Of a stretch of DNA of 35,668 bases, positions 3,772 to 25,076 are shown piece by piece. A program made the position numbers and the translations under genes. The notes below the pieces were generated by a model, which was not told the origin of the DNA, searched no databases, and saw nothing but the letters and a program-made list of their open reading frames with translations. The stretch's first letter is position 1, and each line of letters begins with the position of its first letter. The stretch comes from a virus, in the IMG/VR virus record IMGVR_UViG_3300004806_000007, positions 1-35,668 of that record; one strand, given 5' to 3'.

Positions 3772-4246
3772 TTGTCACCGTAATAGTTTTTTGTACTGTG
3801 TCACCAGATTTAAACGTACCTGTAGCACCGCCTGAAATTTGCCCACTGGTAATAGAAATCGGTACATTTACTGCCGATGTTATTTGCCCTACAGAATTCA
3901 AAGTAAATTGTGCAACTTGACCTGCGCTACCGTAAGTGCCGGCACTTGCGCCAGTTAAAGTTAAAGATAAAGTAATCACGCCTGGCGAATTTGTTACCGT
4001 TATTCCCGTTCCTGCTGTCAACGTTCTTAATGTGTAACCCGAACCATTACCAATGGGTAATTGACCGCTTGTAGGCGTTGTGGATGTTCCCGTACCGCCA
4101 TATACAACAGGCACAATAGAATTAACTGTTGCCCCTGCATAGGATGGATTTTGTAACCAGATTAGCCAAGGATAACTAGGACGCTGTGTAGTAGGGTCAA
4201 GAAATGGCGTTTGTGGATACGCAACGTTTGTGTTTGTTGTGGCCAT
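3746..4246 (-). CDS. Tail-associated protein with YGGTG fibre-type repeat module (166 aa)
   Basis: A short N-terminal segment (residues 1-35, Pro/Trp/Tyr-rich, ending PWLIWLQNPSYAG) precedes a module with VVYGGTGTSTT, LPIGNGSGYT and LTAGTGITVTN. The same three-part module occurs near the C-terminus of the large fibre protein at 9162-11408. The remainder is Thr/Ser/Gly-rich beta-type sequence. The gene overlaps the gp10-like stop in a TGATG arrangement, so it is translationally coupled. It may be a short needle, plug or fibre attached near the tail tip; the sequence alone does not decide. Confidence 0.5.
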   Translation of the reverse strand: MATTNTNVAYPQTPFLDPTTQRPSYPWLIWLQNPSYAGATVNSIVPVVYGGTGTSTTPTSGQLPIGNGSGYTLRTLTAGTGITVTNSPGVITLSLTLTGASAGTYGSAGQVAQFTLNSVGQITSAVNVPISITSGQISGGATGTFKSGDTVQKTITVTNGIITSIV

Positions 4247-5832
4247 CAGTTGCTACCCGCGCTAGCTTTTAAATTAGCTGAAACAATCACGCATTTAATT
4301 GGATCGCTGATAGATACCTCAAAGATTCTATCTCTTGACATACCCAATCGTCGCCAAATTGCACGATTCTTGTATTTGCCAATCTTTCCAATGGATACCC
4401 AATGCTCATTACTCCAAGTTGAGCCACCATCGTTAGACCAGCGCAACATTGCTTGTGGGTCTGCACCAACCGTTTCACCGTTGATGTTGTAATCGTAATA
4501 AATGTTTACAACTTGTGTTGGGCCAATCGCAAATGTGCCACTAGGTGCAATAACAATTGACGTGGGCGATAAGTTTTGATTTGTAAATGTTTGACCATTC
4601 AGACCAACGCCAGGCTGAAACTGAATCTGCAATTCATCGAAATACTGTCTTTGCAAATCAGTAGTTAAATGTGGCGCTCTGCGCAATCTTCGTATTGGAT
4701 TGCCGTTTTCTGTGTAATTATTGTAATCAAGCGCGTAAATTGTACCGTTTTGATAATCACCAACAATATTTACGTTATTAAAAAATGCACCGCAATTAGA
4801 ACGATGACGATGGTAGATGCCATTGCTATCTATTGACAACCATTTGTGCCACATCTTACTAGCTAAGTCATAAACCCAAGTTATATCCACAGTTGGAAAT
4901 GTAACAACGTAGAATTCATGCCCTTCAATCTGAAAACTGTAAGCAACAGCGTCTGCAATGTATTGACCAGCTAGGGTTGCTTCAACCGCATGGGTAGATA
5001 CACGTTGAAATTGGTATCCAACAACTCCGCCAATAATTGCTTGCCCTCTTTCGTCTTTGCTAACAAATAAAAATTGTTCTGCAAATCGTGCAATAGAATA
5101 AGGTGCTGCAATACCGTGTTGCATAGACGTACCAGCAATACGCGCAAATGGAAATGACGTTACACCTGCAACTTGATTACCTACGTCAATCCAAACTTCC
5201 GTTGTCTTTTCGCCAAACAAGTAAATTTGTCTGTGATCGCACAATAAAGATATAAGCGTATCAGGCGAACTATCTTTAACGCCATAATAAGCAGTCGTTG
5301 AATAAGGTGAACCTAGATCAGTAGCTGCCCAAAATCTTGTGCCAACTTGGTTATAGACAATATAGTTATCCACAACGTCAACAATAGATGCACCTTGCCA
5401 AGGGCCATCCGTTGGCGGTAAGACTTGAAACGAACTAGGGCTGACAATCCAAACGTAACGATTAACACCGTCTGCAATATAACAATACAAACCTTGTGCG
5501 CCGTTTACGTTGTCTGTGATGCTGACAGGGCCGCTAGAAGTCGTAAGACTGCCAATAAAGTTAATGTTTTCGTTTTGCGTTACAGAATATACAGATGCAC
5601 CGCAAACAATAACCAAATATTGCCCACCAGACAAAGCGCGCATACCCCTGACAGGGGCGTTATTTAATTGGAATAATTTAGTTAGCCCTGGCGTAGGATA
5701 CAGAGCAACCACACCGCGGTCACCAGGTTGTTTTAACGGGTCAATTTCAGGGTAAAAGTTGATACATTCCTGCGCATCTTGATAGATGCTAGGTGCTGTG
5801 TAGCTTGGGCCAACAAATCCAAAATCAGGCAT
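4246..5832 (-). CDS. P22 gp10-like packaged-DNA stabilisation / tail hub protein (528 aa)
   Basis: The start MPDFGFVGPSYTAPSIYQDAQECINFYPE is characteristic of the phage stabilisation protein family (P22 gp10): a conserved N-terminus followed by repeated beta segments such as YPTPGLTKL, MRALSGGQYLVIVCGASVY, YCYIADGVNRYVWI and TWVYDLASKMWHKW. The length is close to P22 gp10 (about 470 aa). In P22, gp10 binds below gp4 at the portal vertex and closes the tail so packaged DNA does not leak. Here it is immediately downstream of the gp4-like gene, as expected. Confidence 0.85.
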   Translation of the reverse strand: MPDFGFVGPSYTAPSIYQDAQECINFYPEIDPLKQPGDRGVVALYPTPGLTKLFQLNNAPVRGMRALSGGQYLVIVCGASVYSVTQNENINFIGSLTTSSGPVSITDNVNGAQGLYCYIADGVNRYVWIVSPSSFQVLPPTDGPWQGASIVDVVDNYIVYNQVGTRFWAATDLGSPYSTTAYYGVKDSSPDTLISLLCDHRQIYLFGEKTTEVWIDVGNQVAGVTSFPFARIAGTSMQHGIAAPYSIARFAEQFLFVSKDERGQAIIGGVVGYQFQRVSTHAVEATLAGQYIADAVAYSFQIEGHEFYVVTFPTVDITWVYDLASKMWHKWLSIDSNGIYHRHRSNCGAFFNNVNIVGDYQNGTIYALDYNNYTENGNPIRRLRRAPHLTTDLQRQYFDELQIQFQPGVGLNGQTFTNQNLSPTSIVIAPSGTFAIGPTQVVNIYYDYNINGETVGADPQAMLRWSNDGGSTWSNEHWVSIGKIGKYKNRAIWRRLGMSRDRIFEVSISDPIKCVIVSANLKASAGSN

Positions 5833-22414: not shown

Positions 22415-22755
22415 AATTTACATCGTCAACTTTACGATCAATTTACACAATGTTGTGTGATTTGCGTCCATTTTGTCGGTGGTCATTGCCAGGTACTGAC
22501 GAAATCATATTTGTAGCGTCAAACGATACAGATGCTATGGGTACTTATGTTTATGATGACGAAAAAGAAAAACATATTTTGACCATTTCAAAAGTTAAAA
22601 ACGGTCATTTACTTACAATAATTAAAACCATGAGTCACGAGATGATTCACATGAAGCGCTGGCAAACATCAGGCTGGGATAAACACGATGTTGTCTTTAG
22701 ACGTTTTGCCACGCAAATTAGCAATGAATTAGGTTTTGACCCCAACGAGCTTTGA
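22411..22755 (+). CDS. SprT-like zinc metalloprotease domain protein (114 aa)
   Basis: TMSHEMIHMKRW (about residues 73-84) is an HExxH zinc-protease motif in the SprT-like context (xHExxHxxq). A C-terminal DVVFRRFATQI helix matches the usual position of downstream ligand-bearing helices. The protein is a bare catalytic domain. SprT/Spartan relatives cleave DNA-protein crosslinks; that role here is inference. It ends tail-to-tail with the Ref-like gene, overlapping it by 27 bp. Confidence 0.65.
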   Translation: MKFTSSTLRSIYTMLCDLRPFCRWSLPGTDEIIFVASNDTDAMGTYVYDDEKEKHILTISKVKNGHLLTIIKTMSHEMIHMKRWQTSGWDKHDVVFRRFATQISNELGFDPNEL

Positions 22756-23007
22756 TGTTCGTTCTAGCAAATCTTCCTCGCTCACACCATAGTGCCTTGC
22801 AAACGCTTTTCTACCCATGCCATGTACGCCAGTATTGCCTCGATGGTGTTCGGGGCATAGCGCTATAACTGGTGCGTTCTTGCGTAATCCTGCATGACGT
22901 ATGTGGTGTATCTCAGCAGGAGTTTCGCCTAAGTCTAAAAAATTACATAGTATGCAACCAAATGATGCAAGACGATCATAATGTTGCTTTTCTAACTTGC
23001 TCGACAT
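22729..23007 (-). CDS. Ref-like HNH nuclease (92 aa)
   Basis: The sequence HYDRLASFGCILC, AEIHHIRHAGLRKNAPVIALCPEHHRGNTGVHGMGRKAF matches the RecA-dependent nuclease family of phage P1 Ref. It shows a CxxC pair, the HH of the beta-beta-alpha metal motif, CPEHH and the HGMG..AF tail. P1 Ref cuts DNA within RecA D-loops; this version lacks the long disordered N-terminus of P1 Ref. AGGGAT precedes the ATG. It is the last gene of the leftward early operon. Confidence 0.8.
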   Translation of the reverse strand: MSSKLEKQHYDRLASFGCILCNFLDLGETPAEIHHIRHAGLRKNAPVIALCPEHHRGNTGVHGMGRKAFARHYGVSEEDLLERTSKLVGVKT

Positions 23008-23304: not shown

Positions 23305-23627
23305 TTTAAATTTTTATCCATGATTCTATTGTTAGCTTGTTCAGATCGCCACGCATCAAATTTCATTTGCGCCGTAAGCAATCTCCATTTTAGCAATTCC
23401 ATTTCGTAGGTAGCTTGACCTATCCCTTCGCATAGTTGAACATATTCTGCACTAGCATACGCTTCACGCTCTTGCGCCGTTACAGACAAGTTGGGATGCT
23501 TTTTCATTTCAATAGCTTTTAAACTAGACTTAAACGCTTCTAGTTCAGCTAATTCTTGACGTGCTTTAGCAAACTTGGGTGCGTTATCCCAAATAAACTG
23601 TATGGCCTTGTCTGCGGTTTCATTCAT
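23301..23627 (-). CDS. Conserved coiled-coil phage protein (108 aa)
   Basis: This is an all-helical pattern with FAKARQELAELEAFKSSLKAIEMKKHPNLSVTAQEREAYASAEYVQLCEGIGQATYEMELLKWRLLTAQMKFDAWRSEQANNR. The QEREAYAS.EY and LLKWRL..AQMK...WR segments mark a family often found in phage early regions; I know no function. It overlaps the methyltransferase stop and is ATGA-coupled to the membrane protein downstream. Confidence 0.65.
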   Translation of the reverse strand: MNETADKAIQFIWDNAPKFAKARQELAELEAFKSSLKAIEMKKHPNLSVTAQEREAYASAEYVQLCEGIGQATYEMELLKWRLLTAQMKFDAWRSEQANNRIMDKNLK

Positions 23628-24681
23628 TTAAGCAATTCCCAAGCTGTTGCTGCGCACAATGGCACTTGTCCATTTCCAATGGCTTTAAGTCTGTCCACCC
23701 TAGCGGCCACCCCATTAGCCACTCTACCCACGTTGGGTTCAGTTGCCCAGAATTCCGATCTACCGATTGACTGAGCATAATTTGTTTCCCTAATGCTATT
23801 CTTCTTTGTATAGATGGGTTTGACATATTCCCTCTTTCCCGATTGTCCGATGCTTGCGGTGTTGGAAACCACAGAACTACCGTCCCCAAACCTGGTGAAT
23901 CCCGATTGAACTCCGATGGGCTTCCTTTTTCGTTCGCATTGTGACAAGTCGGTGTTGGCCACATTCTTTGTCCGACTATTGTTTCTAAATTTGGTTTGCG
24001 CTTTTCGTTCCACGCTGATTCTGGAGTTATTGTTGCTGCCATTGCGCTGCAACTTCGTGGGGTTGGCCAATTCTCTTGGCGTTTCTTCAATGCTTTCCGA
24101 CTGTTGCTCCCACCGTCCATCCCCGTTGTGTTCGGTGTGTGAAAAAAAGTTTCGTTGTTCGGCTCTAATCCAGATTCTTTCTCGCTGATGGTTTGCACCA
24201 ACGTCGGCAGCGGATACAACGCCCCATTTTGCATCAAACCCCATCGAGGAAAGGTCTGCAAGGACAACTCCAAGTCCTCTAGTAGTGAGCATTGGGCTGT
24301 TCTCCACAAAGACGTATCTGGGTCTAACCTCGCCAATGATCCTAGCCATGTGCTTCCACATTCCTGATCGTTCTCCGTCAATTCCTGCGCCTCGTCCTGC
24401 TGCGCTGATGTCTTGGCATGGAAACCCGCCAGATACAACGTCAACAATTCCTCGCCAAGGTTTTCCGTCAAAGGTTTGTACGTCATCCCAAATTGGGAAA
24501 GACGGGAAAACTTTGTCATTTTGTCGGGCGCACAATACGCTTGCTGGATAGGCTTCCCATTCAACGGCACAGACTGTTCGCCATCCAAGCAAATGTCCCC
24601 CAAGTATTCCTCCACCTGCACCTGCAAAGAGGGCAAGTTCCCGTAAGCATTCATCATTGCTTGGCTTATTAACCATGACAT
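23620..24681 (-). CDS. Overprinted protein in a second frame of the methyltransferase gene (353 aa)
   Basis: This frame stays open for 353 codons over the entire methyltransferase gene. It has the better ribosome site (AAAGGAT eight bases before its ATG). It resembles a protein type I recall from many phages: QVQVEEYLGDICLDGEQSVPLNGKP near the start, FSRLSQFGMTYKPLTENLGEELLTLYLAGFHAKTSAQQ, CGSTWLGSLARLDPDTSLW, LQTFPRWGLMQNGALYPLPTLV, repeated WPTP segments and a C-terminal NPTWVEWLMGWPLGWTDLKPL. No catalytic motif is visible. Some of the similarity could be forced by constraint on the methyltransferase frame. Confidence 0.55.
   Translation of the reverse strand: MSWLISQAMMNAYGNLPSLQVQVEEYLGDICLDGEQSVPLNGKPIQQAYCAPDKMTKFSRLSQFGMTYKPLTENLGEELLTLYLAGFHAKTSAQQDEAQELTENDQECGSTWLGSLARLDPDTSLWRTAQCSLLEDLELSLQTFPRWGLMQNGALYPLPTLVQTISEKESGLEPNNETFFHTPNTTGMDGGSNSRKALKKRQENWPTPRSCSAMAATITPESAWNEKRKPNLETIVGQRMWPTPTCHNANEKGSPSEFNRDSPGLGTVVLWFPTPQASDNRERGNMSNPSIQRRIALGKQIMLSQSVDRNSGQLNPTWVEWLMGWPLGWTDLKPLEMDKCHCAQQQLGNCLNE
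23624..24676 (-). CDS. DNA (cytosine-5) methyltransferase (350 aa)
   Basis: C5-MTase motifs appear in order. Motif I is LFAGAGGG (about residues 16-23, SAM binding). Motif IV is SGGFPCQDIS with catalytic Cys87. Motif VI is FVENSP (123-128), and motif VIII is HQRERIWI (163-170). A variable target-recognition region covers about 175-320, and motif X is KAIGNGQVPLCAA near the C-terminus. It methylates cytosine, probably to protect phage DNA from host restriction; the target site cannot be read. The whole gene overlaps a second open frame (23620-24681). An upstream endonuclease gene is preceded by a remnant of a related methyltransferase start. Confidence 0.9.
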   Translation of the reverse strand: MVNKPSNDECLRELALFAGAGGGILGGHLLGWRTVCAVEWEAYPASVLCARQNDKVFPSFPIWDDVQTFDGKPWRGIVDVVSGGFPCQDISAAGRGAGIDGERSGMWKHMARIIGEVRPRYVFVENSPMLTTRGLGVVLADLSSMGFDAKWGVVSAADVGANHQRERIWIRAEQRNFFSHTEHNGDGRWEQQSESIEETPRELANPTKLQRNGSNNNSRISVERKAQTKFRNNSRTKNVANTDLSQCERKRKPIGVQSGFTRFGDGSSVVSNTASIGQSGKREYVKPIYTKKNSIRETNYAQSIGRSEFWATEPNVGRVANGVAARVDRLKAIGNGQVPLCAATAWELLK

Positions 24682-25043
24682 TCCAAATATCCTTTTAAGT
24701 TAAAAAATAATTCTTTGTCATCTAAACACAAACCCAAAACTGTGTTGCATCTATTGCAAAGAATTTTTCTTACTATGCCAGTTTTATGGCAATGGTCAAC
24801 GTGAGGGGTATTTTGCTTGTTTGTCCATTCAAGTAATTTTTTACAAATTGCACAACATTTGTTTTGCTGTTCAAATTGTTTATCAAACCAATCTATATCT
24901 ACTCCATACTTCCTAACAATTTCCTGTTTGTGGTTTTTATTTCTGTTTTTTATTCTGTATTCAGCAACACGCTCAGGATTTTCTAATCTCCATTTTTTGG
25001 CTTTTTCTCTTGCGTATTCAGAACTTTTCCAATCCGTTTTCAT
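24669..25043 (-). CDS. Endonuclease VII-type HNH nuclease (124 aa)
   Basis: CCAICKKLLEW (CxxC), HVDHCHKTGIVRKILCNRCNTVLGL and a C-terminal FFNLKGYLECHG match the recombination endonuclease VII family (T4 gp49 type), with the HVDHCH catalytic/zinc motif and the CNRCN pair. The N-terminus is Lys/Glu/Arg-rich (YAREKAKKWRLENPERVAEYRIKNRNK). I start it at ATG 25043, preceded by AGGTGA; a longer frame begins with a methyltransferase-like NELALFAG peptide. It may resolve branched DNA or act as a free-standing homing nuclease for the adjacent methyltransferase. Confidence 0.8.
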   Translation of the reverse strand: MKTDWKSSEYAREKAKKWRLENPERVAEYRIKNRNKNHKQEIVRKYGVDIDWFDKQFEQQNKCCAICKKLLEWTNKQNTPHVDHCHKTGIVRKILCNRCNTVLGLCLDDKELFFNLKGYLECHG

Positions 25044-25076
25044 ATTTTCACCTGCGAATAAAGCCAACTCATTCAA
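25040..25076 (-). pseudogene. Remnant of a methyltransferase 5' end upstream of the endonuclease
   Basis: These bases encode NELALFAG in one frame and MSWLYSQV followed by KI and stop in the next. The same two peptides, ELALFAG and (M)SWLxSQ, are the starts of the methyltransferase and its overprinted partner 380-400 bp downstream. The DNA word GCAGGTG is shared. It looks like a leftover start of the same overlapping gene pair, separated from its body by the endonuclease gene. Confidence 0.6.

Follow-up and report, generated by a model that had tools for sequence, protein, structure and literature searches.

Two overlapping reading frames at a phage C5-cytosine methyltransferase locus and their probable roles as chains of one enzyme

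Can a phage methyltransferase gene encode a second protein over its full length and, if so, what would this protein do? In this work we addressed the question for a locus in a virus record (IMG/VR IMGVR_UViG_3300004806_000007), of which the whole stretch of DNA analysed, 35,668 nucleotides in length, is referred to here as the window. It contains phage genes, including those of a terminase, an ERF recombinase and a Ref-like nuclease. An initial annotation, made from the sequence alone, had described the methyltransferase region as open in two frames and had proposed real dual coding, the second product perhaps regulating or accompanying the methyltransferase.

Layout of the locus and conservation of the second frame

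Two ORFs overlapping almost completely were found between positions 23620 and 24681, both on the minus strand, which the initial annotation had not specified (Table 1). They are named here alpha, the methyltransferase chain, and beta, the frame of 353 codons with nearly the same ends that had been noticed earlier. In the window the two starts are no more than 5 nt apart and share a ribosome-binding site, a Shine-Dalgarno-like AAAAGGA placed 8 nt upstream of the beta ATG and 13 nt upstream of the alpha ATG, in agreement with the earlier remark that the second frame has the better-placed site. Among 109 relatives the beta start is invariably ATG, and the nearest alpha start is ATG, GTG or TTG; 83 of them present the arrangement NTGAATG, with the alpha start 4 nt ahead of the beta ATG, and 13 resemble the window, with the alpha start 5 nt downstream of it. 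Since the starts are at most 5 nt apart behind a single ribosome-binding site, one mRNA can yield both chains, and the layout is consistent with the predicted translation of both from that site.

Table 1 Features of the methyltransferase locus (positions in the window)
Feature	Position	Strand	Remarks
alpha	24676-23624	-	C5-cytosine methyltransferase chain, 350 aa, motifs I-VIII and X
beta	24681-23620	-	second chain, 353 aa, other frame, spans all of alpha
Shine-Dalgarno-like AAAAGGA	24690..24696	-	seen in the sequence
alpha motif I (ELALFAGAGGG)	24608..24640	-	conserved columns in alpha alignments
alpha motif IV (FPCQ, catalytic cysteine)	24413..24424	-	P86 and C87 invariant
alpha motif VI (VENSP)	24293..24307	-	E125 and N126 invariant
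alpha motif VIII (HQRERIW)	24170..24190	-	H163, R165 and R167 invariant
target-recognition region of one-chain enzymes	23762..24151	-	disordered linker in alpha 176-305; constrained in beta about 178-307
beta motif-IX-like block (LNPTWVEWLMGWPLGWT)	23692..23742	-	residues 314-330; aligns with motif IX of split and one-chain enzymes
alpha motif X (DRLKAIGNGQVP)	23660..23695	-	G334, G336 and V338 invariant; confident AF2 helices

Directly upstream lies an endonuclease VII-like gene (PF02945, E 1.5e-16; 24669-25076, minus strand), the 3' end of which overlaps the starts of alpha and beta. The small Ref-like RecA-dependent nuclease (PF16786, E 9.4e-8; 22729-23007, minus strand) is encoded downstream of the methyltransferase.

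A frame with random stops had been judged unlikely to stay open over such a length, and this was borne out when alpha's own codons were reassigned among synonymous positions: the beta frame remained open in 0.005% of 20,000 shuffles, with a null mean of 6.7 stops where none is observed. The third frame has 29 stops across the locus. Viral contigs were then searched with alpha only, a search blind to beta, and the 80 nearest alpha relatives all (80/80) kept a beta ORF in the same phase. In 65 non-redundant loci the beta frame contains 76 stops versus 425 expected, and the third frame 1361 versus 1208; the beta-frame stops number 0-2 per gene and apparently fall mainly at both ends, outside the beta ORF. 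The same-phase ORF is present at all non-redundant loci of both the alpha-based and the beta-based samples, with an internal stop in a single one (L011), so that the check for homologues with frequent second-frame stops, an outcome that would have refuted dual coding, did not refute it. Compared with the window, the relatives are on average 60% identical in alpha and 54% identical in beta. In the genus to which Pseudomonas sp. ok272 belongs, ten of 199 genomes have a close alpha, each with an intact beta.

Selection on the two frames

In pairs with 45-70% identity in alpha, beta-frame identity is 0.55 compared with 0.31 after synonymous shuffling, and is higher in 300 of 300 pairs. At fourfold-degenerate third positions of alpha, which are second positions of beta, agreement in these pairs reaches 0.69 versus 0.32 in the shuffled sequences. 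First positions of leucine codons that are silent in both frames show an identity of 0.63 against a null of 0.67, which speaks against a general constraint on the nucleotide sequence. In pairs more than 90% identical, substitutions per site amount to 0.53 where both frames are silent, 0.11 where only beta changes, 0.09 where only alpha changes and 0.02 where both change, these being counting estimates made with neither a tree nor a transition/transversion correction and with few doubly silent sites. Doubly silent changes in close pairs are 5-28 times commoner per site than changes altering one or both proteins. By these measures both frames are under purifying selection, and that on beta exceeds what the methyltransferase frame imposes.

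It could still be argued that the second frame does not code for a protein and only reflects the codon usage or composition of the methyltransferase, as composition alone can give long overlapping frames and gene callers usually annotate just one frame of two. This reading, which is contradicted by the synonymous-shuffle nulls, by a depletion of stops that affects the beta frame and not the third frame, and by the selection on beta, has next to no probability left. A chance or codon-usage origin of the open frame is ruled out by the shuffles together with the substitution rates in both frames. Real dual coding, as initially proposed, is strongly supported by these sequence comparisons.

The constraint is divided between the frames along the locus. 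In close pairs the region of motifs I-VIII is strongly constrained in alpha (dNS/dSS 0.04, dNN/dSN 0.15) and more weakly in beta (dSN/dSS 0.18, dNN/dNS 0.67). In the target-recognition region (alpha residues 176-305) the situation is reversed, with alpha unconstrained (dNN/dSN 0.99) and beta strongly constrained (dNN/dNS 0.10), and more distant pairs show the same contrast (0.95 for alpha versus 0.45 for beta). At the C-terminus both chains are constrained.

Probable division of the enzyme between the two chains

Alpha matches PF00145 (E 8.6e-34; 117.8 bits, above the curated cut-off of 22), phrog_363 (E 1.1e-66) and the profile of phrog_116, a methyltransferase family. The initial annotation had taken it for a complete C5 methyltransferase. 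Motifs I, IV, VI, VIII and X are indeed present, with columns that are invariant or nearly so in the alignment; completeness did not hold, as no block similar to motif IX was recognised in alpha by eye or by alignment, and such a block is present in the beta frame instead. In the AF2 model of alpha, pLDDT is mostly above 90 up to motif VIII, falls below 50 at residues 201-305 and recovers in good helices at motif X; by Foldseek, the model matches M.HhaI (327 residues) over about 168 columns. From this disorder and the partial match to M.HhaI, alpha looks like a catalytic domain without the small domain. In four relatives (L013, L181, L213 and L214) a single stop, located past motif VIII and in the linker or close to it, breaks alpha; beta stays open there despite the stop, and motif X lies on a separate ORF.

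Beta was expected to resemble phage proteins and was found to belong to phrog_1008 by profile match (E 1.7e-33). Nothing above chance was obtained for it in Pfam and the PDB, PADLOC gave no match, and the AF2 model of beta alone has a mean pLDDT of 57.5, too low in confidence to be used. The chain ends in a motif-IX-like block, LNPTWVEWLMGWP. Across 133 aligned sequences, including those of archaeal metagenome-assembled genomes (MAGs), the most conserved part of beta is LNPTWVEWLMGWPLGW, which resembles motif IX of C5 methyltransferases and in which E320, L322, M323, G324 and W325 are invariant. The name of phrog_1008, 'DNA methyltransferase', is inherited from the methyltransferase, and most members encountered here are second chains rather than whole enzymes.

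The relatives in which the two frames are arranged differently help to place beta. In split enzymes, found in phages ArV1, Samy and Spino and at the bacterial loci L187, L211 and L241, alpha stops after motif VIII, and an ORF in the beta frame, with a long partial overlap, carries motifs IX and X. In the actinophages, the C-terminal ORFs of such split enzymes give matches to phrog_116, in its C-terminal part. Gordonia phage Lton gp60 is a one-chain enzyme, in which the PF00145 match covers residues 19-360 and reaches profile position 316, and the phrog_1008 match covers residues 187-373 (E 7e-46). A phmmer comparison of the Lton enzyme with the PDB gave a match that stops short of motif IX, so that the assignment of this motif rests on the Pfam and PHROG matches and on the alignment. 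Because split, one-chain and phrog_116-matching relatives anchor it in this way, the C-terminal part of beta is, as judged by homology searches, a homologue of that end of ordinary C5 methyltransferases which comprises the TRD, IX and X.

The C-terminal half of Lton gp60 (L250, 493-1623) is beta-like. Ahead of the switch, a resemblance to the N-terminal half of a beta chain persists in the +1 frame, as if a frame change had joined both.

A fused enzyme of the Lton type, together with the long partial overlaps of the split forms, would be expected if ribosomes reached the beta frame by frameshifting from alpha, or the reverse, and made one fused chain instead of starting beta on its own. We consider this very improbable given the beta ATG conserved in 109/109 relatives and a conserved N-terminal region that belongs to beta itself. 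The N-terminal residues, about 175 in number, have no counterpart in one-chain enzymes and are conserved among relatives. Their presence could indicate that beta acts separately, for example as a regulator or an anti-restriction factor, with no part in catalysis, and the database labels for beta, which read only 'DNA methyltransferase' or hypothetical, would accommodate such a role; the motif-IX-like block, the homology that links beta with the C-terminal portion of C5 methyltransferases and the lack of motif IX in alpha make it extremely unlikely. The earlier suggestion of a product that regulates or accompanies the methyltransferase can be sharpened accordingly: since alpha is without motif IX, the target-recognition constraint falls on beta and beta contains a IX-like block, beta is most likely a missing part of the enzyme, an obligate subunit with the target-recognition region and motif IX, rather than a regulator.

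The locus very probably encodes a two-polypeptide C5-cytosine DNA methyltransferase. Alpha would supply, besides motif X, the domain for AdoMet binding and catalysis (motifs I-VIII), and beta would contribute the small domain, made up of the target-recognition region and motif IX; the two are predicted to assemble into an active enzyme that would methylate a target site of its own. In a variant of the two-chain explanation, which follows the published reading of M.EcoHK31I with a predicted TRD in the larger chain (PMC3404938), target recognition would reside in alpha, and beta would be a stabilising chain bringing motif IX only. This appears unlikely, as in close relatives alpha is unconstrained in that region and beta strongly constrained, the same part of alpha is disordered in the AF2 model, and split enzymes carry the target-recognition region in the beta frame.

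Of the genes of the window that were tested, none was recognised as coding for a restriction enzyme, which is consistent with an orphan methyltransferase used against host restriction. The enzyme would probably shield phage DNA in this way.

Known two-chain enzymes, spread and significance

M.EcoHK31I, like M.EaeI, is a two-polypeptide C5 methyltransferase of the site YGGCCR, and its beta chain is nested in another frame of alpha. The present locus shares this nesting. It also resembles M.EcoHK31I in the distribution of motifs, which in that enzyme places I-VIII and X on the larger chain and IX on the smaller second chain (PMC3404938): here too the larger set, without IX, is on alpha and the IX block on the second polypeptide. 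It differs in that beta spans the whole of alpha, in that the target-recognition region is apparently in beta, and in that no restriction enzyme was recognised near the locus. M.EcoHK31I is the closest known system, and the locus may be regarded as a variant working like it; we do not file it as a proven member because the TRD is not placed in the larger chain here and because the two were likened by description, not by sequence. M.AquI has motifs I-VIII on one chain and, on its second chain, IX together with the distal variable region (PMC3404938). The locus is similar in having the catalytic motifs on one chain and the variable region with IX on the second; motif X, however, is on alpha here and on the smaller chain in M.AquI, to which the actinophage split forms are closer in this respect.

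Paenibacillus phage Diva offers a similar case, in which a further gene (gp50, 'g49 internal gene') is annotated inside that of the methyltransferase (gp49), in a different frame. Diva gp50 matches phrog_1008 (E 1e-73); unlike beta of the window it is shorter (234 aa), and it is distant in sequence, and the record proposes no function. The HNH endonuclease inserted out of frame in phage methylases is another hidden-frame gene (PMC11855218); it is a different gene, and beta does not correspond to it. In the open-licence literature the overlap in phages was not found described beyond mentions of M.EcoHK31I and M.AquI, and an earlier account of its wide spread may exist.

The same-phase overlap was found in Acinetobacter, Pseudomonas, Burkholderia, Halomonas and Desulforhopalus, and in MAGs of Verrucomicrobia, Planctomycetota, Nitrospirota and Poseidoniaceae archaea. 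As many of the copies in genomes may be part of prophages, vertical inheritance is not proved by host taxonomy. An open frame is also kept in two phage methyltransferase types that are more distant and were sampled with alpha as the only criterion, most sequences having a motif-IX-like block: the strict pattern is matched by 23 of 42 sequences of the Lacticaseibacillus phage R9.1 type and by 67 of 75 of the enterobacterial prophage type, with dNN/dNS about 0.2 in close pairs.

Some individual loci deserve mention. One prophage region of E. coli PT62 (L249) encodes two different C5 methyltransferases, at 1030-2016 and 3988-4725, each with a beta-like overlapping frame. In a homologue of E. coli PCP07014 annotated as a pseudogene (L248, 3988-4749), both frames stop within the 7-base word TGAATAG. 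A single frame change near residue 90 shifts both proteins in a Gallionella MAG (L224, 2885-3984), probably an assembly error or a broken gene. In Synechococcus phage Ssp-JY39 (L251, 506-1621) only the beta frame is annotated, as hypothetical, and the methyltransferase frame is missed.

A survey of overlaps of at least 60 bp raised the question of function versus misprediction; among real co-directional overlaps, the longest that it names is shorter than 60 bp (PMC2478687). Long same-strand overlaps in prokaryotes are often taken for annotation errors; here an overlap of approximately 1.05 kb shows measurable selection on both frames and has been retained in phages as well as in several bacterial phyla and in archaeal MAGs. 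It is likely that these loci represent a large class of C5 methyltransferases, in phages and prokaryotes, which has for the most part escaped annotation and in which two overlapping frames of about 1 kb encode catalysis and target recognition, with beta as the specificity subunit. Selection would be parcelled along the DNA: in the catalytic region it would act chiefly on alpha and in the recognition region on beta, and over a short C-terminal segment, with motif IX in one frame and X in the other, it would act on both. Where records annotate the beta frame only, as in Ssp-JY39, the methyltransferase goes missing. Many annotated orphan phage cytosine methyltransferases would, by implication, be half enzymes, which should be inactive or mis-assigned if expressed alone.
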